From positions 1 through 26,096 of IMG/VR virus record IMGVR_UViG_3300042448_000030: DNA of 26,096 nt, one strand, 5' to 3'. Each line of letters starts with the position of its first letter. Position 1 is the stretch's first letter. The notes beneath the pieces are model-generated. The model was not told the DNA's origin. It was given only the letters and a program-made list of their open reading frames with translations, and searched no databases. The translations under genes and the position numbers were made by a program. Source of the stretch: a virus. Positions 839-25,849 of the stretch are shown here, one piece after another.

Positions 839-863
839 GTTGCTCTCCTTTTATATTGGTTTA

Positions 864-2053: not shown

Positions 2054-2058
2054 ACTCT

Positions 2059-2064
2059 ATTATA
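2059..2064 (-). promoter_or_regulatory. Possible -10 box for a leaderless GTG-start gene
   Basis: A perfect TATAAT on the minus strand ends five bases before the GTG at 2051-2053. The nearest -35-like sequence is TTGAAG with a 20-base spacer, which is poor. The case rests on the absence of a ribosome binding site and on the same arrangement before two other genes in the window. Confidence 0.35.
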
Positions 2065-2076
2065 ACCAATTTTCTT

Positions 2077-10200: not shown

Positions 10201-12751
10201 CAACCTTTGTGCCAAACTGACCACGACCATGAACCTCTACTACGCCTGGGATAGGTCTTCCAGTGTCTTTGTTATAGAAAGGCTTTGAGTATATGCGAAC
10301 AAATCCTGTTGGATACATCTTGCCATTAAACGGAATCTTTGAAAAGTAGTCCTCGTATTCTTCAAGGCTGCTAATCCAAACATCTGCTGTTTCTCCTAGC
10401 ACCTTATACTGAACTGCATCATACTTAATTACTTCACCGTTGGCATAGAAGTACCCTGCGTATCTACCCATCCACTGAGCAGCGTCACCAAAGTCAATGA
10501 TGTTGTCTTGAACAATACCCTGAGCATTTACTGATGGAACCCTATTGGGCAATGCTGTTTTAAGTGGGATTGCTGTTAGTGCATAGGTAGAAAGTGATCC
10601 ATCGTTACCACCGTTTTGTGTCTTGGTGGCTTCTGATGGAGATACTTCCCAAAGAAGCGAAGGCTTGTATGTCCAGTTCTTGTCACGGTCTAGTTTGTTA
10701 GCCTGCTCTAGTGACGAGTAAGACTTTTCAATATACCGAGTTGTAAAGTTAATCTTTCCATCGTTGTAGACTTCTGTGTCCTGGCTTGCGATGCTAACAA
10801 TGTTTGCTAGTTTTGGCTTAGTTGTTGAGTTTCTTTCTACACCATTCTTGGCAGAGTCTTTAGAGCCATATAGCGTAAGGTCTATCTCTCTGTCTGTTGC
10901 TTTTGGAAGCATGTAGTTTCTTGACATCAGAACAAAGTTGTTGTATTCGTCAAAGAACATTGCTGTTTGCGTAGAACGTGCTAGTTCGTTTAGGACTTCT
11001 GCAACAGTTACATCTGGCTCAACATAGAAGAACGGTATGATTGGCTCTGGCTCTCCTGCTACCCTCTTAAAGATGTAGTTGCTAAAGCCAATGTTGTCCA
11101 AAAGAAACGACACTGCATAACTTAGAGATGCGTTTCTGACAAGTACCTGCGGTGCAGAGAACGATTCAAAGTAAGAGAACATATCTCTTAGGTTAATTCT
11201 TACAGTCCTAGAGTCTGCCGATATTTCTGGGAAGCCATCACCATACATAGTCTTGATAGGAACAAAGTAGTCATAGTATGTTCCGTTCTCAAGAACCTCT
11301 GCGATAACATCATAGATCTTAAACTGGATTTGGTTTGGTGCATATTTTGCAATAATGCTTGTTGAATTATTGATGTTAAACGAATTGTCAAAGTCAAAGA
11401 TTTCTATAGATCCTGTAGACACTAGGAGTTGTCCTACTGGCAATCCGCTTACGCCTAGATCTGATGCTGTTTTCTTTGCAGATACCGCCTTTGTTCTGTC
11501 GGTCATGTTTACAGCAAGACGAGTAGACATTTCAATAAGGTCGAAGGTAGAGTCTAACTTGTTCATGGTTTCTACAACAATCCTGAGACCCTTAAGGTAC
11601 TGCATCTCTCTGAAGGTATTTCTAAATTGATTCGTTGTGTTGATAAAGTTATCTGGGCTTGTAGTGTCTGTAACAAAGTGAGTGAATCTGTCTACAGTTT
11701 CTTCTGCAACTATCCATCCATACTCTGGAGCAAACACCTGATATTCTTCATCTGCTTCAATCCATATGTGGTATTCTCCAATGTCTGTTGCAGAACTTTT
11801 AATTAGGTAGGCATATCCGTTTACCGCCTTAACAGGCAAAAGGGCTGTTGTTGAATATGTCTCAGCCTGAACAAAAATGTCTCTGTACATATCTGGAACA
11901 ATTAGTCCATAAGATAATTCTACATATCCGTCTGCACCAATTACAGGAGAGCCATCTCTTCTTGTGGAGTTTGCGTCAAATGTTTTTAGGTCTTCCCATC
12001 CATCTCCGACGAGTCCCTGAATCTTCCATTTAACAGGAGTTGTTTTGTTTGCGTTTCCAAATAGTGGGTCTGGGATACTTCCATTTGCAGTAGCAATGCT
12101 TCCCTGATTAATTGTTCCGACATTAGTTTGCATCTTTACAACTACCCTGTTTGCTGGAACTACTTCTTTATAGACAACAAAAGGAACCGCATCGTCAATT
12201 GCGTATTCAGATAGCCCACCGATTGTTCTGTTTGCTACACCATACTCTTTGCCAGTTTCTGTTCTAAAGGATGTCCAGTATTTAAACTTATCGTTTCTAT
12301 CAGACACGTAGTATCTTGGCCTGTTTGTGTCAAGGTATGATTGACCTAGACCGTTAATCGTTGTACCGTTTACGAAGTGTGTTCCAAATGTTGTAAAGTA
12401 TCTGGCCTTGTTGATTCCAGATCTTGGTCTAAACTTGCCAAGGCAGTCGTCTAGAGAGAAGTACAGTTTTTTCTTTTCGTTTACAGTAGAGAATCTAATT
12501 GGCTCATTTGTTTCATTAAACCCATTCTCAATAGTAGTATCTGAGTTGGTGGCATTTTTGTGAAAAGGATCGTTTGGGTCAAACTGCACTGGTAGAAGTC
12601 TAAAGTCTGTAGATGTTTTACGATAGCGATAGTTTCCCACCATAGAAATGTTGTCAGGAATATTCATATTCCATTCAGCAGATATGAATGATCTGTTCTT
12701 AACGGATGAAGAAGTTTCTAGGTGCTCTTGTAGTTTTTCGTTAAAGAACAT
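7298..12751 (-). CDS. Tail hub/tip protein (Tal-like) with sugar-binding-like insertions
   Basis: This 1817-residue protein should form the distal end of the tail tube and contact the host. Residues about 170-300 look like a discoidin-type galactose-binding sandwich (VPANRVVVKMQTN, WKIQGLVGDGWEDLKTFD). Residues about 450-620 look like a gp27/Tal-type hub domain (VEPDVTVAEVLNELARSTQT, then FFDEYNNFVLMSR). Its partner half appears at the very end (1730-1817: LQLGDIVNID, RFVVYQIEYN, SVYLSEVV). Between them lie insertions: serine/threonine-rich Ig-like repeats at about 900-1190 and a concanavalin/LamG-like domain at about 1290-1530 (FGTRLRLIG, NLRFYLYVNNVLVGTV). No peptidase or lysin motif is visible. 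It starts one base after the preceding stop codon, with GAAGAGG as ribosome binding site. Domain names are fold guesses from sequence patterns; the hub call is the firmest. Confidence 0.75.
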   Translation of the reverse strand: MFFNEKLQEHLETSSSVKNRSFISAEWNMNIPDNISMVGNYRYRKTSTDFRLLPVQFDPNDPFHKNATNSDTTIENGFNETNEPIRFSTVNEKKKLYFSLDDCLGKFRPRSGINKARYFTTFGTHFVNGTTINGLGQSYLDTNRPRYYVSDRNDKFKYWTSFRTETGKEYGVANRTIGGLSEYAIDDAVPFVVYKEVVPANRVVVKMQTNVGTINQGSIATANGSIPDPLFGNANKTTPVKWKIQGLVGDGWEDLKTFDANSTRRDGSPVIGADGYVELSYGLIVPDMYRDIFVQAETYSTTALLPVKAVNGYAYLIKSSATDIGEYHIWIEADEEYQVFAPEYGWIVAEETVDRFTHFVTDTTSPDNFINTTNQFRNTFREMQYLKGLRIVVETMNKLDSTFDLIEMSTRLAVNMTDRTKAVSAKKTASDLGVSGLPVGQLLVSTGSIEIFDFDNSFNINNSTSIIAKYAPNQIQFKIYDVIAEVLENGTYYDYFVPIKTMYGDGFPEISADSRTVRINLRDMFSYFESFSAPQVLVRNASLSYAVSFLLDNIGFSNYIFKRVAGEPEPIIPFFYVEPDVTVAEVLNELARSTQTAMFFDEYNNFVLMSRNYMLPKATDREIDLTLYGSKDSAKNGVERNSTTKPKLANIVSIASQDTEVYNDGKINFTTRYIEKSYSSLEQANKLDRDKNWTYKPSLLWEVSPSEATKTQNGGNDGSLSTYALTAIPLKTALPNRVPSVNAQGIVQDNIIDFGDAAQWMGRYAGYFYANGEVIKYDAVQYKVLGETADVWISSLEEYEDYFSKIPFNGKMYPTGFVRIYSKPFYNKDTGRPIPGVVEVHGRGQFGTKVVEHKAGLDTASWAQNVSGVTMDSDYLFSAIGNFQLRNAYIPHKATVPIKTFGTGSLAWTITAPGTLSAGSGTGVGSVTATNLKASKDYTYSLSMAGRTVYSVTQSLQPKKNIDTVTSLGNISISNIVPGSTTSTLSIKATFPSFRSFYKNTIEAGVSPGSSFSWSVVGANISGGTSGTIVAKPLTPTKKNPKTHDVGTTLIKQGTGLVTIATSTATTIDQTFTATVTNNTATDISLVINGTIVKTITVNPGTVCGVIEDLVPSLAYDNRTIAVEDTSGIKVGQQVDLIAIEKSLSKSGTDLTVTKPFDADNLNMLRVESIQSSTLFKIKHKGDTSVPLKGISAENLLKDIQAINFTDQRFLSLDSTKVAGGKTNDSGNRNSSTVGQGSSITGVIKNYLSSDTTTNNNGITNPQTVPNGSVQSSALVMSGPAFTDANDPNSVDFVSYTYKNLGADAAKYKYFGTRLRLIGKYGYGQEQSGVGEDSWYTSKQLTPSGNETTTVLKASSGGIAVLLNPVTNNGYYFEIAALSDTSISRKVTKYTQDDKIIEDPVHNLLFYKMNVGLDESNAVLTGQKATPVKLWGGLTNVSVDNGLFTGQSRMSSTNSASTVYDLAVEYEVVNENNLRFYLYVNNVLVGTVTDAEPFIDANTKKPIIYNNMALFVRGKAKCMFEHVFAISASPSQTSSTEIVSSASVPENGIFGSGSISFNESMRKYALSGIINESFLKDVSPSSPTGKAIYYEEFGTIMREAAYFNVRYDKSYPALTAQIAPTYNNDRGYVVSGFIAGPYSAEFMIFNSTDSVLVLDGTGGNYLRLQGVTFTQQATHELTVDEYFSTRSSLSDPQTPTGSSLVTSPLKEAQEYNRIRNSRSAYGKKEFTLESRYIQSQDMANSLMDWIANKIMRPRKSIGVNVFSMPTLQLGDIVNIDMKDENGTDQIAPESSRFVVYQIEYNKSNQGPEMSVYLSEVV
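8162..8884 (-). other. Concanavalin/LamG-like domain inside the tail hub protein
   Basis: Residues about 1290-1530 of the hub protein show the strand pattern of a LamG/concanavalin sandwich: a strand with FGTRLRLIG, a GGIAVLLNP turn, a YYFEIAAL strand, and VEYEVVNENNLRFYLYVNNV near the end. Such domains in phage tips usually bind surface glycans. Boundaries are approximate. Confidence 0.5.
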
Positions 12752-12752
12752 G

Positions 12753-13409
12753 CTATACCTCTTCCAGGCTCAGAGACACACCCCAGAGGTCGTGCCCATA
12801 TCCTCGTTTTTCTACTGAGTATGAAAAGTCTGAAAAGAAAACTTCTATAACATCTGAGTATTTGTGTAGATTGTTATACTTGTTTTGACCAGTAAAGTTA
12901 TCGTATCTATCGTATGATAGGAATAGCCAGAATGAACCTTTGTGGTTTTCATACCAGTCAAGCAATTCAATACCGCCAGCACCTCCGTCTGCCGTATACA
13001 TCTGGCTCATGCCGTCTGATACAGTTGAGGTTGTTCTTAGAACTGCAAGACCATTCTCGTCAAACTCTGGTGATGCAGCATAGCCTCTAGATGGCAGTCT
13101 TTGCCAAGATGTAGAAATCTGTACCTTGTCTGCAATGTGATATGAACGCATACGACCATTGACCATACGCTCACGCTTTTCAATTCTTTGTGGCTTGAAA
13201 GATATTTCTCCACGGTTGTGGTCAGATAGCACTAGGAAGGTCCCAGCCTCGTCAGGAGACTCTGCAATAATATCCCCATCTGATCCTAGTTCATAACCTA
13301 CAGGGACGTAGAAGCCCTGCTCTGTGAGTGTTCCAGGGGTATCTGAAAGTAGCATGGCCTGTGGCCTGCCCCACTTCTTTCTACCTGCCATATACGCTGA
13401 TGTGGTCAT
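12753..13409 (-). CDS. Distal-tail-like minor tail protein
   Basis: This 218-residue protein lies between the tape measure and the tail hub, the canonical place of the distal tail (Dit) protein, which forms the ring joining tail tube to hub. The C-terminal half (FWLFLSYDRYDNF and YSDVIEVFFSDFSYSVEKRG) has the beta-rich character of Dit/tube-type domains. Its final residues (GVSLSLEEV) resemble the end of the hub protein (MSVYLSEVV), possibly a shared closing strand. The ATG overlaps the tape measure stop codon (TAATG), with AGGAG 13 bases upstream inside the tape measure gene, so it is translationally coupled. No sequence motif is diagnostic for Dit, so the call relies on synteny. Confidence 0.65.
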   Translation of the reverse strand: MTTSAYMAGRKKWGRPQAMLLSDTPGTLTEQGFYVPVGYELGSDGDIIAESPDEAGTFLVLSDHNRGEISFKPQRIEKRERMVNGRMRSYHIADKVQISTSWQRLPSRGYAASPEFDENGLAVLRTTSTVSDGMSQMYTADGGAGGIELLDWYENHKGSFWLFLSYDRYDNFTGQNKYNNLHKYSDVIEVFFSDFSYSVEKRGYGHDLWGVSLSLEEV

Positions 13410-16400
13410 TATAGAACATTGCTCCTAATTCGCTGTGAGTCAATCTGCTTAATCTGTGCCATTACGGTTCTTGCAATGTCATTAGCATTTGCACCTGAGT
13501 TGGCAACGTTTACGTTGACACTATAATTATACACTGAATCTCCGCCGTATGTTCCACTATTGATAGACTTTAGGTTGTCTACCCCAAAACTCTTTACCGC
13601 TGGCTGGCTTACAACGAACTCGCCTGGGGTAAGCATAGCAGGAATTGTATCTGTTCCTCTTGCAAATCCACCTGCCAGGAATCTTTGTGGCATAACCATA
13701 CCACCCATCTTAAAGCCCTGAACACCAAATGCTTTAAGTTCTGCTGTTCCGATTCCAGAACCTGCCAATGCAGAAACTAGTGGGTCGATGTTTGGCCCCT
13801 TATATTTTTGATACGCATCGTGGGCAACATCACGAGCGTCACTAAGTGCTTTGAGTTCTGCTTTTTCTGAAGCCATCGGGCTTGGACCAATCGCTTTTTC
13901 TCTGGCTGCAAGACTATTGTTTGCCTGTGTGTAATTATCTTTTAAAGTTTTGTAGGTTTCGGCATTTGCTTTTAGCAGTTCAAGGCTGTCCCTAATTGCT
14001 GGTGAAAGTAGTGAGAATGCTTTAGATGTAGATTGCTGCAAGTTTTTTGATAGAAATGACAGGGATTTTTCAGCGGTTCTGTCGTAAGTTGCTTGTAAGT
14101 TTAGTAAGTTAGTTTTTTGATCTGCTGTTAGTGTTGCCCATTTTTTCTGATCCTGCAATCTTATATTTTTGTCTAGTCCTAATTTGCCAAACTCTTCGTT
14201 TCGCCTCTGATTAGCAGTTCTAAATAGATCTTCTGCGGTATTACCAGATGCATCTGGAGTTCTAGTATATCCATATAGATTTGAAAGACTAGTGTTAGGA
14301 CCTTGTCTAAAGCGGTTACTAGTCTTTAATGCTGCCACTGCATCTTTAACAGTTGTTATTTTACCTGGGTCTGCTGGTGGACTACCTGGCACATCATCCA
14401 CGACACCAGTTCCAGTACCGCTACCAGCATTAACAACTTTTCGTGTAATAGTTTGTGTTTGAGGCTTTGATGCTTCTGCATTCTTTTTAATTTGTTCCGC
14501 TGTTTGTGCTACAAGGGTATTAAGAATCTCTCTTTGCTTTGCAAGAATAACTTCGTTCTGTACAATCTCGTCTTTTCTAATCTCAAGAACTTGTAGTTGG
14601 ATGTCGTACATCTTTTGCTCAAGGTCTGCCCTGCTTAGTTTTTGACCATTGATCTCTACGGTTAGTGCGTCTACTGCTCTCTTCTTTGCATCTTCCAAAG
14701 CCTTGACCTGTGCGTCTGCTGCAGCCTGGGCATTCTGTGCTCTAAGTTGTTGTGCAGCCTTAGCAGCAGCACCAATGTCACCACGAGATAGGGCATCGGC
14801 AATGTCTAGTTCGCCCTGCTTCTGTCTTGCAATGTCGTCATTGACAGACTTAACTTCTTGCAGTGCTTGAATCTGCTTGTCGTAGGTCTCATTAATCTTT
14901 TCTGCTTTTTTAGAGATAATGTCAAGTCCGTTTTGGTATACTCCATTCTCAGCCTCAAGAGTGTCTATCCTTACCTGTGCATCATCAATCTCGTTTTGAA
15001 CCGTGCCCTTTGATAGTCTCTCTGCTGCAAGGTTGGCAAGTTTTGCTTTTGCTAATTCGTGTACCGCTTTTTTCTGATCCTTTAGATTACCAATTAGTTT
15101 GATTCCTGAAAGAGCAAGAACCATATCGGAGTCTGCCATTAGTTCAGATGTTAGTGCAGCATTTTGATTTCCAAGAGCCAAGGCTTTTGTTGCGTCAACT
15201 CTGTCATAAATTGATTTTGTAGCCTGTAGCCCACCAACAAATTGTCCTTCAATTTTTTGTCTTGCTGATATTTCATTAAGTTGTTTTAGGAACTTTGTGG
15301 CTTTACCGCTGCTGTCAAAGAAACGTTTCATTTCTTTTTCTGCTTCTTCTTTTGGCATTCCAAGGATGTTATCAATAATGTCTTGGCTAACGTTAGCAGC
15401 AAATAGGTTGTTGGTTAATCCAGAGAACATGTTCTTAAAACTTGACCCCTTCTTGGCAAATGCTTCCAAAGCCTTTTGTGATGCACTATATCCAACTGTT
15501 AGTTTCTGTGAAGCATCTGTTAGGTCTCTAACACCCTTTACGTAATCATCTAGCCATGATGCAGATGGGCCACCCCCATTATTGTTTTGATTCCCTGCCC
15601 CGACTGTATTGTCTACAAGAATTCTATCGTTTACGGCTCTTCTGGCTACAAAGTCGGTGTACATTCCCCAACCAACAATATCAGCCTTTGCTCCGTCTTT
15701 ATTCTCTGGAGAACTTAGCCAAGCCAAAAAGTTTGGATCTTCAAAGTTCATAGTTCCAGAAAAGGTAGCAACATAAGATAAATATATTTGTTGCTCCGCT
15801 TTTGTTTTAATTGTAGAAAAGTATTTTTCATTATCTCTTAAAACATCCATTGCCTGCTCGTTCAAGATGCTTGCTCTCTGAACAATATCTACAGTTAGCA
15901 TCTTTGGCTTGAGGTTTTTAATCTCTTCAATATCTTCCATCAGGGCTTTTTCAACATCTGGTCGCTTAGAAACAAAATCAACTAGAACTGTTGCGTCAAT
16001 CCAGTTGCTGTTCATTCTTCCAAGTTCGCTATACATCTGTAGAAGTTGTTCTGCCTTTTCTCCCTTTACGGTAGACATTTTGGTCACAAACTCTGCTTGC
16101 ATCTTTTTGTTAGATTTTCCATTTTCGTCAACAAACATTCTGCTTACTTGCAAGACTTGGGCAAGTCCAGTTCCAGTAAGGTTTGTTCGAATGTCAAATG
16201 CTTTTTGCATAACATCTGCGTCATTCTTTACAAGACTTGTAAGAAGAAGCATTGAGTCTGGGTCTATAGTTGTTCCAAGATCAAGCAGTAGGTTGTATCT
16301 CTGCCCCTTATCTGTTACCGATGATCTTAGATTTTCTATTGCTATTGTCGCAAGGTCTTCCTGAGCAGTACCCTTGTATTTTTTAGTAACGACCTTTTCG

Positions 16401-19400
16401 GCACCAGATAAGAGTTGATCTTGGTAATCGCTTGCAGCAAATGAATCGCTAATTTGTTGCTGAGTTTCGGCTGTTTTGTTTAGTAGTTTCTGTCGGGCGG
16501 TGATGTATTCATTTTGTAGTCTTTCTGCTTTGGCTGCGTTGCCTGCTGCTTCGGCTACTTTAATTCTCTTTTCATAGTCTAGTTCTAGAGAGTCTAGTAG
16601 TTGCTTTTGTTGGTTTAGAGCAGCAGCCTGGATTGCTACGTTTGCACCTGCAAGTTTACCCAAGCGTTTTCCATACTCTTCAGAGGCTGTGAAGTATCCA
16701 GTAATTCCTCCAGCAACTGTTCCGATAACTGCCCCAATTCCAGCACCAATTGGACCAGCAATCATCGACCCTGCAACAGCACCTGCAGCAGCACCCACAC
16801 CAGCACCAGCAGCGATACCGCCAAGCATCATTCCAGTTTCATCGCCATTCCTCATGCCACTATTTTCTATATTTGTTGCCGCAGTAGAAATCTGTTCTTG
16901 AGATTGCTGTATGATTTTTGTTCTAATTTCTAAACCATTTTTAAGAATGTCTTCGCCGTTTGGTCCCATGAGGCTTGCTAGTTCTCCAGCAACCTTGATG
17001 CCAAGGTTTACGTTACCCATCTTTTTACCAATGCTAATGGCAATACTTCTCGCTTGCTTTGTTGTTATTGCATTAGACAAAACTGCTGTAGAAAGTTGAG
17101 CAAATAGTGCCGATTGTTGAGAGGCCCCACCCATCGCAGCACTTGCTGATCCTAGGGCTTTGGTCGTTGCTTGACCAGTTTCAGACTCAACAAAACTTTC
17201 TCCAAATGTTGATTTTCCGCTAACAACTGTAAATGGGCTAAGTTGTCCCTGCCTACGCCTATCCATAATTTCAGAGGCAGTTACCTTGCCAGCAAAGTCA
17301 GCGAGTCCTTGAATTGCTTTCGCACCAGCACCAATTGAATCAGTGAATTCAAGAACCTTGTCAATTCCGCTAGCAATCGTGTCGTTATATTTTGTCATTG
17401 AAAGCCAAGCAACGGCGACGGCTGCTGCAAGTAGGGTAATGAAACCCATAGTTTTACCCATATTTTGAAGTAGCATCGTAAGCATTGAGAAGCCACCAAG
17501 AAGTGGTGTGATTGCTTGTGCTACTTTTCCAACTTCTCCACCCATCATCGAAAGGCTACCCATAACCATAGATGCTGTCATCATGTATCCAGAAAGGTTT
17601 CTGGTGAATTTCTCCATGCCAGCACCCTTAGTCTTGGTTCCTGGACCTGCACCATCTCCACCAGGAACTCCCTTGCCCTGCTGAATGTTATTCAAAAGTT
17701 CTTTGTCAATAGCAATTCCACGCTGTTCTGCTAGGCGTAGTCTTTCCTTAATTACCTCGGACTCAAGGCCGTTGGCTTCCATATCTTGAATAAGAGCGTT
17801 TTCTTTTTCTTGCATTATCTGCATGTCTCGTGCAGCAGCATCAAGTTCTTGTTGGGTAAACTGATATCCTTGTTGGTGCTTTGCTTGAAGAATTTCTGCC
17901 TGTGTTTGAAGTGCAAGATATTCTTCATCAGTACCGAGAAGCATTTGCTGTGCTAGCATCTGTCTCTGTTCGTGGATCATGGTCCTAGACTGAACTTCTT
18001 TATCGATATTGTTTTCGAAGTGGTTCATAATCTTAGTTCCTGCTGCAACAACCTTAGCCTTTAGTTTTTCAAAGCCGTTAGAAAGCATTGTAAGGCCCTT
18101 GTCTGCAATGGCTGATGCAGCCTGTCCTGCAAGTTTTCCACCTGCTGGCCCAAAGGCTCTTGTGCCGTAGAACTGTCCAGCAGCACCAGCAGCCATGCTT
18201 GCTACCTTAATCTTTGCACGTTGTACTAGACCAAGTTTCTTCGCTGGCTGTTCTGCTGGCGGTACTGATTCAGCACCCTGATTATAAGACTGTTGATCTT
18301 GTGCACCTAGGTCAAAGGCATCGTGGTGTGGACTACTACGCTTTGCTTTATCTTGAATTAATTCAAAGGGGTCGTCCTGTGGGGCAACAACACTCTCAGC
18401 ACCGTCAATAAATTCACCCATATCTCCTGCACCAGTTGCTGAAGGAGGAACTGTGTTAGCCATTGGCACACGAGGTCTGTCATTCCTAATTCTTGATTCT
18501 CTAATTGATGATGCTGGCCTTGGCAACAGTGTTCCGTCTGGTGCAATTGAGTGTTTTCCGTCTTCGGTCGTGGGGAATCCAGCAGCATCTAACTGCTCAC
18601 GAGCATTTACTCTAACATCATAAATATTGCTCTCTAGTTGTTCGATTGTTGGACTAATTCCAGCAATCTGAGGTCCTAATTTTTCTCTTGCTTTTCCAAT
18701 AATATCTGCAACCTGAGAAGATCTTATGTTTAGTTCACCAAAGTTTTCAACAGCCCTGAGAATTTCTTGATCTAATAGTTCTATTTCTGGTAAGTGTTCT
18801 TCCCAATTTAGCCCAGCATTTTCAAACGTCTGCTTCCATTTTTCGGGACCACGCCTCTTAAAGTCTGCAGCAAAGTCTGCTGTTGGTACTGGATTGTCAA
18901 ACTTCATCTTATTGTTAAGTTGCGAATCTTGTGCAAAAGTAAATCCAGAGCCTGCTATAACTTCAAAGTTTGGGATATATTTAATATACTGTTCTAGTTG
19001 TTTTTTGAATGCTCCCTTTATTTGGTCTGTTCCTGATGCTAACAGTTCCGAGGCTAACATTGTGCCAGATTCTTTTACGTGAGCCTGATCTGTACTATAT
19101 ATCTCGCTTGGATGTAACCCTAGTGGCACTCCTGCCTGCTTTGCTGCTGGTGGATAGTAAGAAGGCCTCATGTTGACTTCTGGCCTTTGTTCTGTTCCAA
19201 GGTTTTTATTTTGAGTGAAGAATTCTGTCATACTTCTTTCAGCAACTGTTTTTGCCTGCTGTACATATATCTTAACTTGCTCTAAAAGGTCTTTTTGAAG
19301 TTCACCCTGTGTATTTTTTACAATAAGTTGAATTTCTTGTCTAAGTTTTGCTTCAAATAGGTCTGGGTTATTGCCACCATATTTTGACATTGCTTCAGAA

Positions 19401-22400
19401 ACAACGCTTTCCTCATCAAACGGTTCTTCTCCAAGAATACCGCCTTGTGATAGTTTAAGAACCTTTCCAGAAATTAGGCTTTCTACTAGGCCTCTGTTTC
19501 TTGATACGGAATCAGCAGGTATTACTGCTTCTCCATTTGAAAGCATTGCAGGGATTGAATCGCTTGTTCCTGTACCAGGGCCAGAAACCATACCGCCTCT
19601 GGCATATTTTTGAACCCCATACCCAGGATTTGTTCCAATATTCCAGTTAACATATTCTGATGGACCAATTTCAAAACCTTGATATCCTTCTTTTATTAAT
19701 GACTGAATAAATGGGTCACCTATCTTACCGCCAATACCAGAAGAGTATGGGTCTAAGCCACCTTCTTGTAGATCGTACAAAATTCCCTCTACAACATCAG
19801 ACTTGAGACCACCATTCTTTATCCAATCCATTGCTTTTTGTTTTAGAATGCCATCGTTACCCCAGCCATTTATATAACCTTTACCACCGATAGTTTGTTT
19901 GAGTGCGTCATCAGACATAGAAATCTTATACTCATTTTTACCCCATAGATTCTTTTTACCAGTAGCAAAATCTCTTTCTCCAGTGACTGCCGAAAAGTAC
20001 ATTCCTTTACCAAGGTTTGAGATTCTATAGTTACTTGGCACAGTATCTGGGTGCAAAAGTTCTGATAGTTTTGGATTGTTGGTTTGGTGTACAGCAAGTT
20101 TATCCATAATTGCAGCCTTGAGTCCAGGGGCTAGAGAGTCCCAGTTTCCTCCAGATTGCTGCACCATATCATTTAGTGTTTTTAACTGTATTGCGTCTTG
20201 TCCGTTTAGTGGCTTAACCTGTTTTAAAAATTCTAGGTATGAGTTGTCAAAACTCATAGGATTTAGTCCAAGAGATTTTCTATCTGGAAGAATACCACCC
20301 TTAGCCATCTTGAGTATTCCACCCTTAGCAAACTTATTATTGTTAACTAATGTCTTAACATATTCTTCACGTGGGTCAACAGTGTTTTTGTCACTTACCC
20401 AGTTTGTATCCCTAAGTTTAGCACCACCTACGTTGTTTCTCCAGGATATTCCGTCAGCGGATATTTCTGGAGAGTGAACTGGATGTTTAATAACTGATGG
20501 GTTTTTGAGGGCTTCTAGATTTGCTGCATGCCACATGTCTGATGCAATGCCCTGACGGCGGAATGCTTCTTCAACCCAGACCATGAGAATTTCTCCACTG
20601 TCTGGATCCCACTTAAGGTCGCCACGAGTTTGACCAGTTGCGTCTTTTGCTTCAATTGCATGCATTGGACCATTTGTCTCAATGTTCTTCATTAGGCGGT
20701 ATGTATAAGAAAGTTGGTCCTTCTTCTTAGATGGATCATTGTTCTTCATCCTGCTCTTTGCAAGTTCAATTGGGTCTGCAATTTTGCCATTAACTACCAG
20801 CCCACCCTTAGCCATCTCAAGTATTCCACCCATAGCCATTTTCTTGGGGCTTTTCTTCTTTTTAGCAGTAGGGAGTGGGTTAAGCATTGGTGGTGTGCGA
20901 CCTGGGAAGTACTGTGCCCACTCTGCAGAGATCTTAGCCTGAATCTCTTCTGGGGTCATGTCATAGTACTCGTCAGTTATTTCGCTATCCATTAGGTCGT
21001 TAGCAAATAAGTATTGTTCGTAGCGTTTACGAGCAACGGTGGTTTCTGGGCTATCATATTTACCTTCTGGCAATTTTTCATAGGCTTTTTCCATAGCAAC
21101 AAATGCTAGTGCGGTTTCGTAGAATCCTCTGGCTTCTGTTACGTCTGCTGGTTCTTGTTCTGGAACAACTTTACCCTTTCCAATGATTCCACCCTTAGCC
21201 ATCTCAAGTATTCCACCCATAGCCATTTTTAGAGGGTTAAATGCTGGTATGCCTAACAGGCCAACAGCACCACGTGTCTTATCCATATCGTCATAGAATT
21301 CTTCAATCTTGTGATCGCTCATCAACCTAGCAGTTTTTTCATACTTCATTCGTTCTGGTCTGCGATAGTCTCCGTCTTTTCTTGACATCAATCTAACCTT
21401 GGTTGTGTCAATTCCAAGTTTGGCTAGAGTTTCTAGGGTAATGTTATCAGCAGACTTGGGCCTTGCTGTCATAAGAATAATCGTGTTTCCACGTGCTTGT
21501 GCTTCGTGAAGTTTGGCAATGGTTGCAGGCATTCCAACTGGGTTCTTTGCTACCTCAGTTTTCCAGTCAAGTCTTTCTTCTACTGGAAGTTTTTCATTTG
21601 CTGCTCTGTGTCCAGGCATAAACGATCTTAGATCAAGCAGGGTGTCGTCAATGTCAAAGATTGATGTTGGTTTTCTTGGGTCAACGTTTTCTCCAACAAT
21701 ACCGCCCTCTGCCATCTTCTTTGGTGGAGTAAGTTTAAGGTTGCTGTGAAGTGCGTGATACTTTGTCCAGTCTACACCTCTTGCAGCCTCTAGACGAGCA
21801 ACCATGTTTCCGTATACTGCCTGTTCTTCTGGTGTTAGGTCTGGGAAGCCAGCAATTGTTTGTTTAAGTCTTGGAAGCGTTTGCTCAATCTCATTACGCA
21901 TTCTGTCTTGGTATTCTTGTGGTGACATGCTTGCAGCAATACCCTTAGTGCTTTCAGCAAACCATTTCTTTGCACCACCCTTTACTCCAAGAAGATTAAT
22001 AAGAGCCTGTTCTTCCATGGACTTCATGTTAGGTTCGTATTCTCTGAATCCAGATGCCTTTGCAAATACCCCTGCAGTTCCGACATCTGGAAGAATGTTT
22101 CCTCCGAGGTTTCCCTGTCCTAGGTCTTTATCTCCACGCAGTAGCGATGCCACTAGTTGTGTTGTATATTCTTCCTTTGAGAATGTTTGTGGAACTTCAG
22201 AGAACGTTGGGTCAAAGTCTGACTCAAGGGCATAGAACCTTCTGGTTCCAGTCTTGTCTGTAGGGTCGTTGATTGCAACAAGTCTTTGCTGTGGTGATCT
22301 CAGACCATGAGCACCTCTCGCAATCTCTGTTCCACGAATTTCTGCCATAGCAGACTGGAAGTCCATAACTGGCTTTACGAATACTTTACGACCATCAAAG

Positions 22401-24763
22401 GTCTCGTACATTCCACCAACTCTAAATAGTGGGAAACTGTGTCCCTTAGATACTGAAAGTTGGTGCTTGTATTTTGTTACTGGCATGTCTGCTCGTGGTG
22501 ATTCAGCAAACTTAGCATAAACCGCCTGTGCGTCTTCTTGACTACGCTGTCTAGCCTTAAACGACTGTGGCATTCCAAGGAACTGCTTTTCTCCCTTGTT
22601 AACAATTCCACCTTCAGCAAGTTTTAGAACCTTACCAGAAATAAGGTTTTCTACAAGCCCTCTGTTTTTCTTTACTGATTTTGCTGGAATAACGGCTTCA
22701 CCATTAGACAACATTGCTGGAACTGAATCTGAGGTTCCTGTTCCAGGTCCAGAAACCATTCCACCCCTAGCAAATTTTTGTGGAGCAATGTTGGTTGGAT
22801 TAGTTCCAGCAGGACTATACGCTCTCTGGGCATCTATGTTTCTTACATAAGACTGAGTTAGTTGATCTACTGCTACCGCTTCTGAAGTAAATCTTTGTGT
22901 TAGTTGTTGGTGAATCTGGTCAAGAGATGCTGCTACCGCTGCTGCCTTGATCTGTGTTTCGGTCATGTATGTGGTTGATTCTCCAAGCATACCTGTTTCT
23001 TGTGTTGTTCTGTTAATGAAAGACTTGATGTTGACAAACATCTTGACAAGGTTTGCAATACCGTTCGCTACTAGACCAACAGACATAAGAAGTAGTGGAC
23101 CAACACCAGCAACCAAACCTGTAAATGTTACCCAGAAGGCTTTTGACCCTTCTGACATTTTGTTAAATCCGTCAAGGAACTTAGAAACAAAATCTAGGAT
23201 TGGGGTTACTGCCTTAAGGAATGCCTCTCCAATTGGAGCAAGTTTAACCTTGATATCCTCAACAGCCTTTTGAAACTTAAACATTGGGGAACTTTCTACC
23301 CTCTTCAGTTCTCGCTCAGACAGGATTGCAAGTTCTTCTGTGGTTGCGTTACTTAGTTCTAGAACCTTTTGTGCCTGAGTTCCTTCTTGAATTACGTTTT
23401 GGAACAATGTCGATAGACGTGAAAACTGGAACTTACCGAACATTTGCTCAATGGCACGTGCTCGGTTTAGTGGGTCTAGGGTATCTAGTGCACTAGCAAA
23501 ATCTAGGACAAGGCCCTTTACATCGCCCTTGTTTGCCTCAACAATGCCCTTAACATTTACACCAAAACTTGCAAGGAACTCAGATGCTTTTCCTGTTGGG
23601 TTAATCAAAGATGCAAGACCAGACTTAAGTGCGTTAGCACCCTCAGATGCGTTAATTCCACCTTCCTTCATTGCTGTCAGGAAGAATGCTAGATCTTGTA
23701 CGTCTCCACCAAGTTGTTTAACAACTGGTGCAGCCTTTGGAATAGCAATGGTGAGGTCTTCGATAGATGTAACAGTTTGGTTTTCAACTGCGTTAAGGAA
23801 GTCAATCTTTCCTGCTAGGTCTTCTGCTGCAATTCCAAAAGCGTTAGTTAGAGACATTGTTGTTTCTAGTGCTTGTGCCTGTTCTACAGATCCAAGTACC
23901 GCAAGTCTTGTAGCATTTGCTACCTGCTGCATAAGGTCTGCTCCGACCTTACCTGCTGCTGCTGCCTCGGCAGCCATTTCCATTGTGTCTGCTACCGCAA
24001 CACCATACTTAGTGTATTCCTGAGCAAGAATTTTTAGGTTCTTAATCATGTCTTCTGATTCTTTTGCAGTAGTTCTAAAATCTCCGTAGACACGCTTAAA
24101 CTTGATAGAACCCTTTTCTAGTTCCATGTACATCTTTGCTGCTGCAGTACCTGCCATTGTTAGCGGTACGGTAAAACCAACCATCAACTGACGACCAGCC
24201 CACTGGGTGTTCTTACCCCAGTTGAGAAGGTTAGTTGATCCTTGCTTTAGTAGTTGGTTTAGTATCTGTTGTTTCTGGGCAGCGATGGCTGTTTTTGTTC
24301 CCAGGTCATTCATGTCAAGAACTAGAGGTCTAACTGCGATTGCCTTCATGGCACCGCTAGCGTCACGGCCTAGTTGGATGTATTGGGTTTGAAGAGTCTT
24401 GACTCTTTCACGAGCAACCTTATCAATGGTTGACATTTCGGACTTGAATAGTTTTCCGAAGTTCTTTGTTGCACCGCCAGCATACCTAAAGTATTGGCCC
24501 ATTGAGAGTTTGTTTTTCTCAAGTGCTTCTGTAAAAGACTCTGTGGTGGTCTTGATGTTTTGAATGCTTGCATTAAACTTACCTGCAGCATTAATATCAT
24601 TGATTAGATTTTGTCTAAGTTTGGCTGCTGCTGCTGCTTGTGTGGCAGAGCCACGAGCCATCTGTGTTTGGAAGGCTGATATCTGAGACTGTAACGCCTT
24701 TAAATTTGCTAAGGCCTGACTGGTATCAATATTAATATTGATATTAGTCTGAGAATCAGCCAT
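13409..24763 (-). CDS. Tape measure protein carrying an array of enzyme-like cargo domains
   Basis: This 3784-residue protein fixes tail length and fills the tail tube until DNA ejection. Residues about 215-480 match the TP901/PhageMin_Tail core (ESEDMIKNLKILAQEYTKYG, LTTAMKEGG-like FFLTAMKEGGINASEGANAL). Hydrophobic segments lie at 543-573, 2390-2456 and 2643-2692, the last a glycine zipper, and could insert in the host membrane. Residues 3180-3435 are alanine- and charge-rich coiled coil. The C-terminus holds the common GTDTIPAMLTPGEFVV motif. What is odd is the stretch 664-2110: two 57-residue repeats enclose kinase-like, HAD phosphatase, helical, GNAT-like and ADP-ribosyltransferase-like modules separated by MAxGGI linkers, and an unknown module follows. 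No lysozyme or NlpC/P60 domain is seen. The ATG at 24761-24763 has AGAGGTG about 8 bases upstream. The gene follows two tail chaperones, as expected. Confidence 0.95.
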   Translation of the reverse strand: MADSQTNININIDTSQALANLKALQSQISAFQTQMARGSATQAAAAAKLRQNLINDINAAGKFNASIQNIKTTTESFTEALEKNKLSMGQYFRYAGGATKNFGKLFKSEMSTIDKVARERVKTLQTQYIQLGRDASGAMKAIAVRPLVLDMNDLGTKTAIAAQKQQILNQLLKQGSTNLLNWGKNTQWAGRQLMVGFTVPLTMAGTAAAKMYMELEKGSIKFKRVYGDFRTTAKESEDMIKNLKILAQEYTKYGVAVADTMEMAAEAAAAGKVGADLMQQVANATRLAVLGSVEQAQALETTMSLTNAFGIAAEDLAGKIDFLNAVENQTVTSIEDLTIAIPKAAPVVKQLGGDVQDLAFFLTAMKEGGINASEGANALKSGLASLINPTGKASEFLASFGVNVKGIVEANKGDVKGLVLDFASALDTLDPLNRARAIEQMFGKFQFSRLSTLFQNVIQEGTQAQKVLELSNATTEELAILSERELKRVESSPMFKFQKAVEDIKVKLAPIGEAFLKAVTPILDFVSKFLDGFNKMSEGSKAFWVTFTGLVAGVGPLLLMSVGLVANGIANLVKMFVNIKSFINRTTQETGMLGESTTYMTETQIKAAAVAASLDQIHQQLTQRFTSEAVAVDQLTQSYVRNIDAQRAYSPAGTNPTNIAPQKFARGGMVSGPGTGTSDSVPAMLSNGEAVIPAKSVKKNRGLVENLISGKVLKLAEGGIVNKGEKQFLGMPQSFKARQRSQEDAQAVYAKFAESPRADMPVTKYKHQLSVSKGHSFPLFRVGGMYETFDGRKVFVKPVMDFQSAMAEIRGTEIARGAHGLRSPQQRLVAINDPTDKTGTRRFYALESDFDPTFSEVPQTFSKEEYTTQLVASLLRGDKDLGQGNLGGNILPDVGTAGVFAKASGFREYEPNMKSMEEQALINLLGVKGGAKKWFAESTKGIAASMSPQEYQDRMRNEIEQTLPRLKQTIAGFPDLTPEEQAVYGNMVARLEAARGVDWTKYHALHSNLKLTPPKKMAEGGIVGENVDPRKPTSIFDIDDTLLDLRSFMPGHRAANEKLPVEERLDWKTEVAKNPVGMPATIAKLHEAQARGNTIILMTARPKSADNITLETLAKLGIDTTKVRLMSRKDGDYRRPERMKYEKTARLMSDHKIEEFYDDMDKTRGAVGLLGIPAFNPLKMAMGGILEMAKGGIIGKGKVVPEQEPADVTEARGFYETALAFVAMEKAYEKLPEGKYDSPETTVARKRYEQYLFANDLMDSEITDEYYDMTPEEIQAKISAEWAQYFPGRTPPMLNPLPTAKKKKSPKKMAMGGILEMAKGGLVVNGKIADPIELAKSRMKNNDPSKKKDQLSYTYRLMKNIETNGPMHAIEAKDATGQTRGDLKWDPDSGEILMVWVEEAFRRQGIASDMWHAANLEALKNPSVIKHPVHSPEISADGISWRNNVGGAKLRDTNWVSDKNTVDPREEYVKTLVNNNKFAKGGILKMAKGGILPDRKSLGLNPMSFDNSYLEFLKQVKPLNGQDAIQLKTLNDMVQQSGGNWDSLAPGLKAAIMDKLAVHQTNNPKLSELLHPDTVPSNYRISNLGKGMYFSAVTGERDFATGKKNLWGKNEYKISMSDDALKQTIGGKGYINGWGNDGILKQKAMDWIKNGGLKSDVVEGILYDLQEGGLDPYSSGIGGKIGDPFIQSLIKEGYQGFEIGPSEYVNWNIGTNPGYGVQKYARGGMVSGPGTGTSDSIPAMLSNGEAVIPADSVSRNRGLVESLISGKVLKLSQGGILGEEPFDEESVVSEAMSKYGGNNPDLFEAKLRQEIQLIVKNTQGELQKDLLEQVKIYVQQAKTVAERSMTEFFTQNKNLGTEQRPEVNMRPSYYPPAAKQAGVPLGLHPSEIYSTDQAHVKESGTMLASELLASGTDQIKGAFKKQLEQYIKYIPNFEVIAGSGFTFAQDSQLNNKMKFDNPVPTADFAADFKRRGPEKWKQTFENAGLNWEEHLPEIELLDQEILRAVENFGELNIRSSQVADIIGKAREKLGPQIAGISPTIEQLESNIYDVRVNAREQLDAAGFPTTEDGKHSIAPDGTLLPRPASSIRESRIRNDRPRVPMANTVPPSATGAGDMGEFIDGAESVVAPQDDPFELIQDKAKRSSPHHDAFDLGAQDQQSYNQGAESVPPAEQPAKKLGLVQRAKIKVASMAAGAAGQFYGTRAFGPAGGKLAGQAASAIADKGLTMLSNGFEKLKAKVVAAGTKIMNHFENNIDKEVQSRTMIHEQRQMLAQQMLLGTDEEYLALQTQAEILQAKHQQGYQFTQQELDAAARDMQIMQEKENALIQDMEANGLESEVIKERLRLAEQRGIAIDKELLNNIQQGKGVPGGDGAGPGTKTKGAGMEKFTRNLSGYMMTASMVMGSLSMMGGEVGKVAQAITPLLGGFSMLTMLLQNMGKTMGFITLLAAAVAVAWLSMTKYNDTIASGIDKVLEFTDSIGAGAKAIQGLADFAGKVTASEIMDRRRQGQLSPFTVVSGKSTFGESFVESETGQATTKALGSASAAMGGASQQSALFAQLSTAVLSNAITTKQARSIAISIGKKMGNVNLGIKVAGELASLMGPNGEDILKNGLEIRTKIIQQSQEQISTAATNIENSGMRNGDETGMMLGGIAAGAGVGAAAGAVAGSMIAGPIGAGIGAVIGTVAGGITGYFTASEEYGKRLGKLAGANVAIQAAALNQQKQLLDSLELDYEKRIKVAEAAGNAAKAERLQNEYITARQKLLNKTAETQQQISDSFAASDYQDQLLSGAEKVVTKKYKGTAQEDLATIAIENLRSSVTDKGQRYNLLLDLGTTIDPDSMLLLTSLVKNDADVMQKAFDIRTNLTGTGLAQVLQVSRMFVDENGKSNKKMQAEFVTKMSTVKGEKAEQLLQMYSELGRMNSNWIDATVLVDFVSKRPDVEKALMEDIEEIKNLKPKMLTVDIVQRASILNEQAMDVLRDNEKYFSTIKTKAEQQIYLSYVATFSGTMNFEDPNFLAWLSSPENKDGAKADIVGWGMYTDFVARRAVNDRILVDNTVGAGNQNNNGGGPSASWLDDYVKGVRDLTDASQKLTVGYSASQKALEAFAKKGSSFKNMFSGLTNNLFAANVSQDIIDNILGMPKEEAEKEMKRFFDSSGKATKFLKQLNEISARQKIEGQFVGGLQATKSIYDRVDATKALALGNQNAALTSELMADSDMVLALSGIKLIGNLKDQKKAVHELAKAKLANLAAERLSKGTVQNEIDDAQVRIDTLEAENGVYQNGLDIISKKAEKINETYDKQIQALQEVKSVNDDIARQKQGELDIADALSRGDIGAAAKAAQQLRAQNAQAAADAQVKALEDAKKRAVDALTVEINGQKLSRADLEQKMYDIQLQVLEIRKDEIVQNEVILAKQREILNTLVAQTAEQIKKNAEASKPQTQTITRKVVNAGSGTGTGVVDDVPGSPPADPGKITTVKDAVAALKTSNRFRQGPNTSLSNLYGYTRTPDASGNTAEDLFRTANQRRNEEFGKLGLDKNIRLQDQKKWATLTADQKTNLLNLQATYDRTAEKSLSFLSKNLQQSTSKAFSLLSPAIRDSLELLKANAETYKTLKDNYTQANNSLAAREKAIGPSPMASEKAELKALSDARDVAHDAYQKYKGPNIDPLVSALAGSGIGTAELKAFGVQGFKMGGMVMPQRFLAGGFARGTDTIPAMLTPGEFVVSQPAVKSFGVDNLKSINSGTYGGDSVYNYSVNVNVANSGANANDIARTVMAQIKQIDSQRIRSNVL
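13571..13708 (-). repeat. Third (C-terminal, diverged) copy of the tape measure GG-IPAML motif
   Basis: Residues about 3686-3731 contain GGMV, then FARGTDTIPAMLTPGEFVVS and a KSFGVDNL helix. They align with the two internal 57-residue repeats over the G-T-x-D-x-IPAML-x-x-GE core. This C-terminal version is the one widely found at the ends of tape measure proteins and is probably the ancestral copy. Confidence 0.7.
16688..16837 (-). other. Glycine-zipper membrane segment of the tape measure protein
   Basis: Residues 2643-2692 are almost only G, A, I, V and M with glycines spaced three to four apart (GGIAAGAGVGAAAGAVAGSM). This is a glycine zipper like those in pore-forming and membrane-inserted proteins, and is a candidate for building a channel in the host membrane during DNA entry. 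Confidence 0.55.
18434..19435 (-). other. Tape measure cargo module 6, unknown, ending in a disordered linker
   Basis: Residues 1777-2110, after the second long repeat, form a mostly helical region. One segment, HPSEIYSTDQAHVKESGTML, and a following YIKYIPNFEVIAGSGFTFAQ stretch look like a compact fold, but I cannot name it. It passes into a proline-, glutamine- and acid-rich linker to about residue 2175. Confidence 0.4.
19436..19606 (-). repeat. 57-residue bracket repeat, copy B, of the tape measure protein
   Basis: Residues 1720-1776 begin YARGGMVSGPGTGTSDSIPA and end LKLSQGGI. They are identical to copy A (22604-22774) at 49 of 57 positions, counted by eye. The DNA of the two copies differs at many third positions, so the protein sequence has been kept while the DNA drifted. 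It marks the downstream edge of the five-module cargo array. Confidence 0.9.
19607..20287 (-). other. Tape measure cargo module 5: ADP-ribosyltransferase-like domain
   Basis: Residues 1493-1719 contain a helical lead-in, an NLGKGMYFSAV strand-turn, and at the end a GYQGFEIGPSEYVNWNIG segment. The G-x-G-x-YF signature and a late E-Y-V strand are the recognisable parts of the ADP-ribosyltransferase fold in phage polyvalent proteins, and HPDTVP before the first strand could supply the histidine of an H-Y-E triad. The fold call is inference from these short motifs and activity is not shown. Confidence 0.45.
20288..20335 (-). repeat. MAxGGI linker repeat 3 of the tape measure protein
   Basis: Residues 1477-1492 read KFAKGGILKMAKGGIL, a tandem of two (M/F)AKGGIL units. 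It separates the GNAT-like and ADP-ribosyltransferase-like modules. Its DNA is similar to the two 41-bp repeats with a few mismatches. Confidence 0.8.
20336..20794 (-). other. Tape measure cargo module 4: GNAT acetyltransferase-like domain
   Basis: Residues 1324-1476 carry the core of a GNAT N-acetyltransferase: a strand (GEILMVWVEEAF), then RRQGIAS at 1402-1408, which fits the acetyl-CoA pyrophosphate-binding R-x-x-G-x-A motif, then the helix DMWHAANLEAL. Preceding strands contain HAIEAKDATGQTRGDLKW. The domain is short for a full GNAT and the substrate cannot be predicted. Confidence 0.6.
20802..20842. repeat. 41-bp perfect direct repeat, copy 1
   Basis: These 41 bases are identical to 21189-21229. 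They encode KMAMGGILEMAKGG at the junction between the small helical module and the GNAT-like module. They lie within linker repeat 2 (residues 1308-1323). Confidence 0.9.
20846..21187 (-). other. Tape measure cargo module 3: small helical domain, unknown
   Basis: Residues 1193-1306, between two identical linkers, predict two or three helices (ARGFYETALAFVAMEKAYEK, TVARKRYEQYLFANDLMD, TPEEIQAKISAEWAQYF) and then a proline- and lysine-rich tail. I recognise no family. Its clean bracketing by the 41-bp repeats marks it as a discrete inserted unit. Confidence 0.55.
21189..21229. repeat. 41-bp perfect direct repeat, copy 2
   Basis: These 41 bases are identical to 20802-20842. They encode KMAMGGILEMAKGG at the junction between the HAD phosphatase-like module and the small helical module. 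Recombination between the copies would delete the helical module in frame, since the distance between them is 387 bases, exactly 129 codons. Confidence 0.9.
21227..21703 (-). other. Tape measure cargo module 2: HAD phosphatase, PNK 3'-phosphatase-like
   Basis: Residues 1021-1179 have the complete haloacid dehalogenase motif set: IFDIDDTLLDL (nucleophile D1037 and D1039, DxDxT), IILMTARP (T1099), a lysine in RRPERMKYEK (K1140 or K1143) and the acidic EEFYDDMDKTR. The LMSRKDGDYRRPERMK segment is very close in pattern to the phosphatase domain of T4-type polynucleotide kinase, which removes 3'-phosphates from nucleic acid ends. All catalytic residues are present, so activity is plausible. Confidence 0.75.
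21698..21718 (-). repeat. MAxGGI linker repeat 1 of the tape measure protein
   Basis: Residues 1016-1022 read KMAEGGI, a single linker unit between the kinase-like and HAD-like modules. It is the most diverged of the linkers at the DNA level. Confidence 0.7.
21719..22603 (-). other. Tape measure cargo module 1: atypical kinase-like domain
   Basis: Residues 721-1015 resemble the actin-fragmin kinase/HipA type of atypical kinase fold. A strand with a lysine (GRKVFVKP, K797) is followed by a helix with a glutamate (AMAEIRGTEIARGAHGL, E808) and later by LRGDKDLGQGNLGGNIL, where D880 and N885 have the D-x4-N spacing of a catalytic loop. The expected second metal-binding aspartate of a DFG-like motif is not obvious (AGVFAKASG), so the domain may be inactive or misassigned. 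Confidence 0.42.
22604..22774 (-). repeat. 57-residue bracket repeat, copy A, of the tape measure protein
   Basis: Residues 664-720 begin FARGGMVSGPGTGTSDSVPA and end LKLAEGGI. This copy marks the upstream edge of the cargo array; copy B at 19436-19606 marks the other edge. Its GTSDSVPAMLSNGE core matches the C-terminal tape measure motif at 13571-13708. Confidence 0.9.
23045..23137 (-). other. Hydrophobic segment of the tape measure protein
   Basis: Residues 543-573 (FWVTFTGLVAGVGPLLLMSV and on) are long and hydrophobic enough for a membrane-spanning helix. It closes the PhageMin_Tail region just before the cargo array. Confidence 0.55.
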
Positions 24764-24789: not shown

Positions 24790-25110
24790 TTATACTGCGA
24801 AATTTGGAGATGCGTTTTGTGCGATCTTAAGACCTGACGCTTCCTCCACGATTTCATATACAGTCGGTAGATCTAGAAGATCCTCCAATGATTCTGGCTT
24901 TTCCGCTAGTTCTGGTTTGTATTGCTTCATAGCAATAGCCACACATTCTAGAAGAAGGTCCATCGATTTTGAATTGTTGTCAGCAACCTCTGAAATCTTT
25001 TCAAACTTGTCCATGAATGGACGAAGTAGCGAGATCTTTAGTGGTCTGATTTCAATTTTTGTTCCGTCAAGCAAGGTAACTGTTCTTGCTTCTTGTACTG
25101 TTGTTGCCAT
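24790..25110 (-). CDS. Tail assembly chaperone, short form
   Basis: This 106-residue protein lies immediately before the tape measure gene, the standard place of tail assembly chaperones that coat the tape measure during tail polymerisation. It is clearly paralogous to the N-terminal half of the 227-residue protein upstream: both share PLKI-x2-LR-x-FMD-x-F, C-x2-IAM-x-QY-x-PE and ED-L-x-DLPT-x-Y. It corresponds to the short G-type chaperone. No slippery sequence is seen at its 3' end. The stop codon is followed by an A-rich run and then the tape measure ribosome binding site. A strong AAAAGGAGG lies 7 bases before the ATG, and a good promoter at 25140-25169 lies upstream, so it can be made in excess over the longer form. 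Confidence 0.8.
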   Translation of the reverse strand: MATTVQEARTVTLLDGTKIEIRPLKISLLRPFMDKFEKISEVADNNSKSMDLLLECVAIAMKQYKPELAEKPESLEDLLDLPTVYEIVEEASGLKIAQNASPNFAV

Positions 25111-25139: not shown

Positions 25140-25169
25140 ATTATAGCATAAACGAATTAGATTGGTCAA
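25140..25169 (-). promoter_or_regulatory. Sigma-70-like promoter for the short chaperone and tape measure
   Basis: The minus strand shows TTGACC (25164-25169), an 18-base spacer and TATAAT (25140-25145) preceded by TGC (extended -10). The -35 overlaps the stop codon region of the long chaperone gene. A leader of roughly 20 bases with AAAAGGAGG follows. The design is the same as that of the promoter at 866-895. Confidence 0.65.
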
Positions 25170-25849
25170 ACCTTTTCATAGGATAGGCCCATGCCGATTC
25201 CAAATCCAGCCTTTGCTGCTTTTTGTCCTCGGAGAGATGTAACATCATTGGGGTCTCCACCTTTATTGAACACCTTGTTTTTAAGTTTTTCCCAAGGATC
25301 TTCCTGTTTCTTTTGTTCGCTTTCCATATCAATGCCCTTTAAGGCTGCCATAAACTTTCTTTGATTATATATGTCTTCTCTTTTGGCGTTCAGGGTCTCT
25401 GATAGTTCTGGCATTGATAGCGAGGATTCTAGTTCTTCATAGTCTTTCCAGATACCCAGCAAGAATACTTCAGACTCCAGTTTTGCTAGGTCTATCTTTT
25501 CCCAAGAGTTATTCTCATCGTGATTAGCCTGCTCTGGTAGGCTCTCTCCTGCCTCTTCTGGTGCCTTCATACTAATACCTCCAGCAATTTCAAGAACCTT
25601 GTAAAGTGTTGGCAGATCGAACAAGTCTTCTATCTGGCTTACTGTCTTTATTTCTGGCTGGTATTGCATCATGGCTATCAGGGCACATCTAGATACAAAC
25701 TCAAATGCGTCTGAGTTGTCAATAGATTCACGCACGTTTTGAAACTCATCCATAAACAATCTAAGATATTTTATCTTGAGTGGAGTGATGTATATCGGTT
25801 CACCGTGGATGGTGAATATCATTGCCGAATTATATATTTTACTTGCCAT
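25166..25849 (-). CDS. Tail assembly chaperone, long form
   Basis: This is a 227-residue protein. Residues about 10-95 are the chaperone domain shared with the 106-residue protein downstream (ITPLKIKYLRLFMDEF, CALIAMMQYQPE, EDLFDLPTLYKVLEIAGG). Residues about 110-227 add an acidic, helical extension (WEKIDLAKLESEVFLLGIWK, RKFMAALKGID, a glycine-rich end). This matches the layout of the long GT-type chaperone of siphophages, where the T part binds tail tube subunits. Here it is one uninterrupted gene, not the product of a frameshift. There is no Shine-Dalgarno sequence. TGGTACAAT ends six bases before the ATG, just after the terminator at 25874-25895, so a leaderless transcript starting at the ATG is likely. 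Confidence 0.75.
   Translation of the reverse strand: MASKIYNSAMIFTIHGEPIYITPLKIKYLRLFMDEFQNVRESIDNSDAFEFVSRCALIAMMQYQPEIKTVSQIEDLFDLPTLYKVLEIAGGISMKAPEEAGESLPEQANHDENNSWEKIDLAKLESEVFLLGIWKDYEELESSLSMPELSETLNAKREDIYNQRKFMAALKGIDMESEQKKQEDPWEKLKNKVFNKGGDPNDVTSLRGQKAAKAGFGIGMGLSYEKV

Follow-up and report, generated by a model that had tools for sequence, protein, structure and literature searches.

Proteins that combine several injected enzymes and tape measure proteins that carry an enzyme have been described separately. Polyvalent proteins (Iyer et al. 2017, PMC5512222) are of large size and combine several domains, among them kinase, GNAT and ADP-ribosyltransferase (ART) domains; they presumably reach the host together with the DNA, and cassette-like recombination has been proposed for them. 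Phage examples in the text of that paper are MuF-, portal- or capsid-linked, and the text contains no mention of tape measures. The tape measures of TM4, T5 (pb2) and phiIPLA35 have an embedded enzyme domain, a wall hydrolase that cuts peptidoglycan (PMC6116005). The Sle1/Tme effectors of a bacterial contractile injection system consist of a tape-measure-like carrier with one variable functional domain at the C terminus and are proposed to be reconfigurable (PMC13277306). In a survey published in Nature Communications, tape measures stood out as mosaic on sequence grounds, with genuine recent cases unconfirmed (PMC10684548). No report of tape measures with kinase, GNAT and phosphatase arrays was found in the open-licence literature, and this absence is not proof.

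The window, which is the whole stretch of 26,096 nucleotides analysed here, is a 26-kb virus record encoding a giant tape measure protein (TMP). Like polyvalent proteins, the TMP holds several unrelated enzyme domains within one large protein, but the carrier is a tape measure rather than a head, MuF or portal protein or a conjugative element. Like the three lysin-bearing tape measures it contains embedded enzymes, whereas Pfam gave no peptidoglycan hydrolase domain in it, and its folds are several, suited to the cytoplasm and located in an N-terminal slot between two hydrophobic segments (TM1 and TM2). It resembles Sle1/Tme in its carrier and variable domains, and differs in belonging to a phage and in having an internal enzyme array. 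Since enzyme-bearing tape measures and injected multi-enzyme proteins were each known, the distinct payload system of the preliminary description is not wholly distinct; the combination is the new part. We propose, with a probability of about 0.6, that the TMP contains an exchangeable, hook-bracketed cargo slot between TM1 and TM2, whose enzymes would act on cytoplasmic targets after delivery by the tail. The assignment to the phage tape measure proteins was based on the PhageMin_Tail core, on PHROG matches spanning residues 1-640 and on the tail-gene neighbourhood. The general features of the protein are as follows.

13409..24763 (-): giant TMP, 3784 aa, a single ORF; PF10145 above cut-off; core similar to PHROGs of tail length tape measures, with E as low as 1.4e-94
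23435..24016 (-): PhageMin_Tail core (PF10145), residues 250-443; Pfam E=3.7e-24
23033..23140 (-): first hydrophobic segment (TM1), residues 542-577; seen in the hydropathy profile and conserved across 64 TMPs
17390..17461 (-): second hydrophobic segment (TM2), residues 2435-2458; hydropathy
16700..16834 (-): glycine zipper, residues 2644-2688; hydropathy and a Pfam Gly-zipper match that stays below cut-off (E 4e-4)

The slot is bounded by the hook, a conserved motif of tape measures of about 43 residues (GG...GPGTGTSDSIPAMLSNGEAVIPA). In the TMP of phage JBD30, the segment 1022-1066 is predicted to fold into a hook, made up of two helices and a beta-hairpin, which anchors the TMP in the baseplate (PMC11445458). 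Our hook HMM matched JBD30 gp46 at 1023-1063, which coincides with the published segment, and we therefore regard the motif as the equivalent of the JBD30 hook. Three copies were found in the window, and the first two form a direct repeat.

22634..22762 (-): hook copy 1 (MOT), residues 668-710; HMM; DNA similarity to close relatives stops inside it
19466..19594 (-): hook copy 2, residues 1724-1766, closing the cargo array; HMM
13553..13672 (-): C-terminal hook, residues 3698-3737, placed like the hook of JBD30; HMM
22601..22780 (-): 180-nt direct repeat (family D1), upstream copy, 76% identical to 19433-19612
19433..19612 (-): 180-nt direct repeat (family D1), downstream copy, 76% identical to 22601-22780

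Hooks were present on both sides of the slot in 33 of 39 cargo-bearing TMPs, the other six being without one or both brackets as scored, and of the 25 TMPs in which no cargo is known, 19 had exactly one hook within the slot. The association between at least two hook copies and cargo was significant (Fisher p=1e-7; 1.7e-5 in the core-selected set alone). Among cultured phages the motif was found in 1,367 records, and almost all of the matches listed are tape measures. Being so widespread, the hook could serve as a signpost for cargo in cultured phages, and it may mark, as a general landmark, where TMPs are anchored and carry cargo. In Gordonia phage Kita a hook copy follows immediately after an SLT transglycosylase, and the M23 peptidase of Streptomyces phage LilMartin is flanked by two hook-like matches, of which one is weak; wall hydrolases thus appear to use a similar arrangement. 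If the slot proposed here is real, tape measure lysins and the tape-measure-like effectors of injection systems may have a common origin in one modular slot.

Between hook copies 1 and 2, discrete modules occupy residues 717-1719. The pattern [AS]xGG[ILMV] occurs 11 times, each time at a module edge and never within a module core, against an average of 1.1 occurrences, and never more than 5, in 1,000 composition shuffles. The cargo ends at the second hook, at about residue 1720-1772. The preliminary description had placed about 1450 residues of modules with Gly-rich spacers at 18434-22774 (residues 664-2110). Its linkers are real and its modules were found at 717-1719, while residues 1773-2175 were rejected as cargo, because part of this region recurs in family TMPs with and without known cargo; on the same grounds residues 1780-2110 are assigned to the TMP proper. 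The modules, and the segment that follows them, are listed below.

21710..22615 (-): kinase-like module, residues 717-1018; 56-sequence alignment, AF2 model, kinase/HipA fold matches, phage matches, dN/dS
21221..21709 (-): HAD module, residues 1019-1181, a phosphatase resembling polynucleotide 3'-phosphatases; Pfam, PHROG, motifs
20834..21196 (-): small helical module, residues 1190-1310; also beside HAD in another TMP (L108/L175)
20330..20812 (-): GNAT acetyltransferase-like module, residues 1318-1478; Pfam; relatives of 47-84% in L181 and L182
19607..20305 (-): module 5, residues 1487-1719, ART-like by pattern alone (a His followed by GxGxYF); its family has 10 members in TMPs
18224..19447 (-): segment of the TMP proper that follows the cargo, residues 1773-2180; part recurs in other family TMPs

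Judged from these patterns, the slot opens with a hook, continues with xAxGGI-linked modules, and is closed by a second hook in most cargo-bearing proteins. The base composition of the modules carried no foreign signature, with the exception of a somewhat lower GC in module 5. Independent modules, rather than a continuous coiled coil or disorder over residues 721-2110, were found as the preliminary description had anticipated, with enzyme folds for three of the five. Among them are a kinase-like domain, a GNAT and a HAD resembling polynucleotide 3'-phosphatases, and their conserved active-site residues are intact.

The sequence search with the kinase-like module gave no family match, and its profile had no meaningful match to PDB sequences. 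The AF2 model was of high quality (pLDDT 91, pTM 0.88), and all 50 PDB fold matches listed were kinases or kinase-fold enzymes. These matches were modest (E of at least 5e-3, TM-score below 0.4), the one of highest probability being HipA (0.94, E 9e-3). K797, E808, D878, D880, N885, D893 and G895 were invariant in the alignment of 56 relatives, and a median dN/dS of 0.17 in relatives indicated purifying selection. A protein-kinase-like (HipA-like) fold with its catalytic residues is thus present, with weak TM-scores, and the kinase identity of residues 717-1018 is well supported, activity being predicted. The polyvalent-protein kinase family has no C-lobe (PMC5512222), whereas here the helices after the catalytic loop were modelled as a helical C-terminal lobe. 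Against viral models the best matches (E 3e-6) were giant phage proteins annotated as ADP-ribosyltransferase, portal or PI3/4-kinase-like, which connects the fold to other multi-domain, possibly virion-borne proteins. No cellular or prophage relative was found in the genome contigs searched, and none in cultured phages. The search found 295 loci, chosen by this module so that their frequencies are not population estimates; all 80 examined lay in TMP reading frames and none was free-standing.

Residues 1019-1181 are, on sequence criteria, certainly a HAD phosphatase of the polynucleotide 3'-phosphatase-like type, with predicted activity. The module matched Pfam Acid_phosphat_B (E=3.6e-12) and the polynucleotide kinase PHROG (E=3.4e-11), and the superfamily motifs (DxDxT, Thr, Lys, DD) are complete as D1037xD1039DT, T1099, K1140 and D1158D1159; they were intact in 10 relatives. 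Its sequence family is that of T4 Pnkp-type polynucleotide 3'-phosphatases and class C acid phosphatases, which are free-standing, whereas here the domain lies within a TMP; its matches in cultured phages were likewise free-standing polynucleotide kinase/phosphatase genes or similar. The GNAT module scored 21.9 bits against Acetyltransf_1 (cut-off 20.7) and has the acetyl-CoA loop (R/QxxGxG/A) as RRQGIA at 1402-1407, and one relative exceeded the Acetyltransf_10 cut-off. For module 5, the His and GxGxYF pattern is common to 10 members in TMPs, two copies being present in each of L118 and L145. Its model was of low confidence (pLDDT 64), neither Foldseek nor Pfam gave a match, and the PDB profile search returned tankyrases below threshold (E about 0.5). 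None of these four approaches confirmed an ART identity, and ART-like is an unproven description of the pattern. Hence the HAD phosphatase, GNAT acetyltransferase and atypical kinase that had been read from motifs were upheld, and the ADP-ribosyltransferase-like fold was not.

Related TMPs were compared among the 80 most similar relatives, which were found by TMP core, so the frequencies are not population estimates. The core (residues 1-712) was 60-89% identical and the helical part about 30%, and residues 720-2390 were present, absent or rearranged between relatives. The array was absent from some TMPs with 75-89% identical cores, and L003 (87% core) had none of the five modules. Other combinations were kinase-HAD-ART-like (L163), kinase-HAD with two ART-like copies (L173) and kinase-GNAT (L181). 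A further module is common to L005 and L181 and has a cytidylyltransferase family match in L005, and a DUF3626-like module, just below its cut-off, was found in L035. Among 48 dereplicated TMPs from the core scan with both hydrophobic segments, 14 carry module types of the window, and 6 more have a two-hook insert without module assignment. DNA similarity broke off at residues 697-701, inside hook copy 1, in L003, L004, L005 and L007. Between L095 and L181 the GNAT cassette DNA is 84% identical and the adjoining hook 91%, compared to 75% for the core, which suggests that the cassette was recently exchanged. The comparisons indicate that modules are gained, lost, duplicated and exchanged between related phages, with breakpoints in the hook, and the module turnover that the preliminary description had called for is strong.

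Some arrangements in these relatives deserve mention. In L005 the cytidylyltransferase-like module (12137-12697) lies between two hooks, in a TMP whose core is about 80% identical to that of the window. In L077 a GNAT module near the C terminus marks a second cargo site (locus 16973-20482); the segment before it, which had no Pfam match, has repeated units and LHGS...FGANFF, reminiscent of ADP-ribosyltransferases by eye only. The TMP of L145 contains an OmpA peptidoglycan-binding domain (about 10207-11259, E 1e-17), followed by its two ART-like copies in a second, C-terminal cargo position.

In other phages, TMPs are reported or proposed to fill the tail tube as trimers, to leave first, to enter the membrane and to form a DNA channel (PMC11445458). 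In the delivery that we propose, the TMP would be an extended oligomer in the tube that is ejected ahead of the DNA. Its hydrophobic segments would then insert in the membrane, and the cargo between TM1 and TM2 would be exposed on one face and refold on the cytoplasmic side. TM1 (about 540-577), which may be a hairpin, and TM2 (after the cargo) flank the slot in 64 TMPs. The mean net charge is -1.3 before TM1 and +1.7 after it, that is, positive on the cargo side on average. Under the positive-inside rule this weakly favors the cytoplasmic side, and it is from this charge bias that we infer the placement of the cargo. The refolded enzymes would modify host proteins or nucleic-acid ends at DNA entry, in takeover or counter-defence; host proteins would suit the kinase and GNAT, and nucleic-acid ends the HAD. 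T4 Pnkp, for comparison, repairs tRNA cut by host defence. Counting against delivery, the TMP trimer density in the tube lumen is about 20 A wide (PMC11445458), so folded domains of 150-300 residues would need unfolding or extension. If the proposal is right, tape measures would, in one large phage group, be more than rulers and channels and form a tail-borne route for several enzymes, parallel to head-packaged polyvalent proteins. The wider version has an even chance in our estimate: that across a large uncultured phage group the hook-bracketed slot is a tail-borne effector platform, which brings an enzyme array into the cytoplasm ahead of the genome and is swapped by recombination at the hooks.

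The same array could instead be an assembly-time polyprotein. TMP processing is known in other phages, and linkers lie at every module edge. Excised from the TMP inside the producing cell, by cleavage at xAxGG linkers or at hooks, the modules could act there late in infection, with phage proteins or tRNA/DNA ends as possible targets, without ever being in the virion; a cleavage site adjoining the hook has indeed been proposed for the JBD30 TMP (PMC11445458). However, separate genes would be a simpler route to the same job, the kinase-like module was confined to TMPs at every locus examined, and no obvious protease gene was recognized in the window, which makes this explanation rather unlikely. 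It is also improbable, to a somewhat greater degree, that the cargo has an extracytoplasmic role like that of tape measure lysins, with the wall or envelope as its target during penetration. The wall hydrolases adjoining hooks in the cultured actinophages Kita and LilMartin, and the OmpA-type domain of L145, speak for such a role, but no window module was recognized as a wall hydrolase, and kinases, acetyltransferases, polynucleotide phosphatases and cytidylyltransferases normally need intracellular ATP, acetyl-CoA, NTP or nucleic acid.

The modules might also be catalytically irrelevant, being either neutral insertions at a permissive site or a component of the length ruler. Tape measures accommodate changes in length and the middle region is poorly conserved overall, yet the invariant kinase residues, the low dN/dS and the intact HAD motifs are not expected of passengers. 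In addition, the stretch C-terminal to TM2 measures about 1,350-1,420 residues in each of the window, L003 and L005, although their slots range from 696 to 1,858, so it is not obvious that the cargo belongs to the ruler. We consider this reading very unlikely, and tail delivery of the enzymes remains our preferred explanation.

Among cultured phages, those of Streptomyces have the most closely related TMP core, with an identity of about 31%, and the host is therefore probably an actinobacterium. The TMP gene is flanked by two small ORFs on one side and by tail-like genes on the other. The small ORFs (24790-25110 and 25166-25849) are adjacent, lie directly upstream of the TMP gene and have similar N-terminal parts. 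Neither had a Pfam match, and they are possibly duplicated tail assembly chaperones, which they resemble by position alone. Downstream of the tail genes, on the same strand, the region 185-3297, in which the ORF at 185-838 had no Pfam match, encodes a DnaG-type primase and a DnaB-type helicase.
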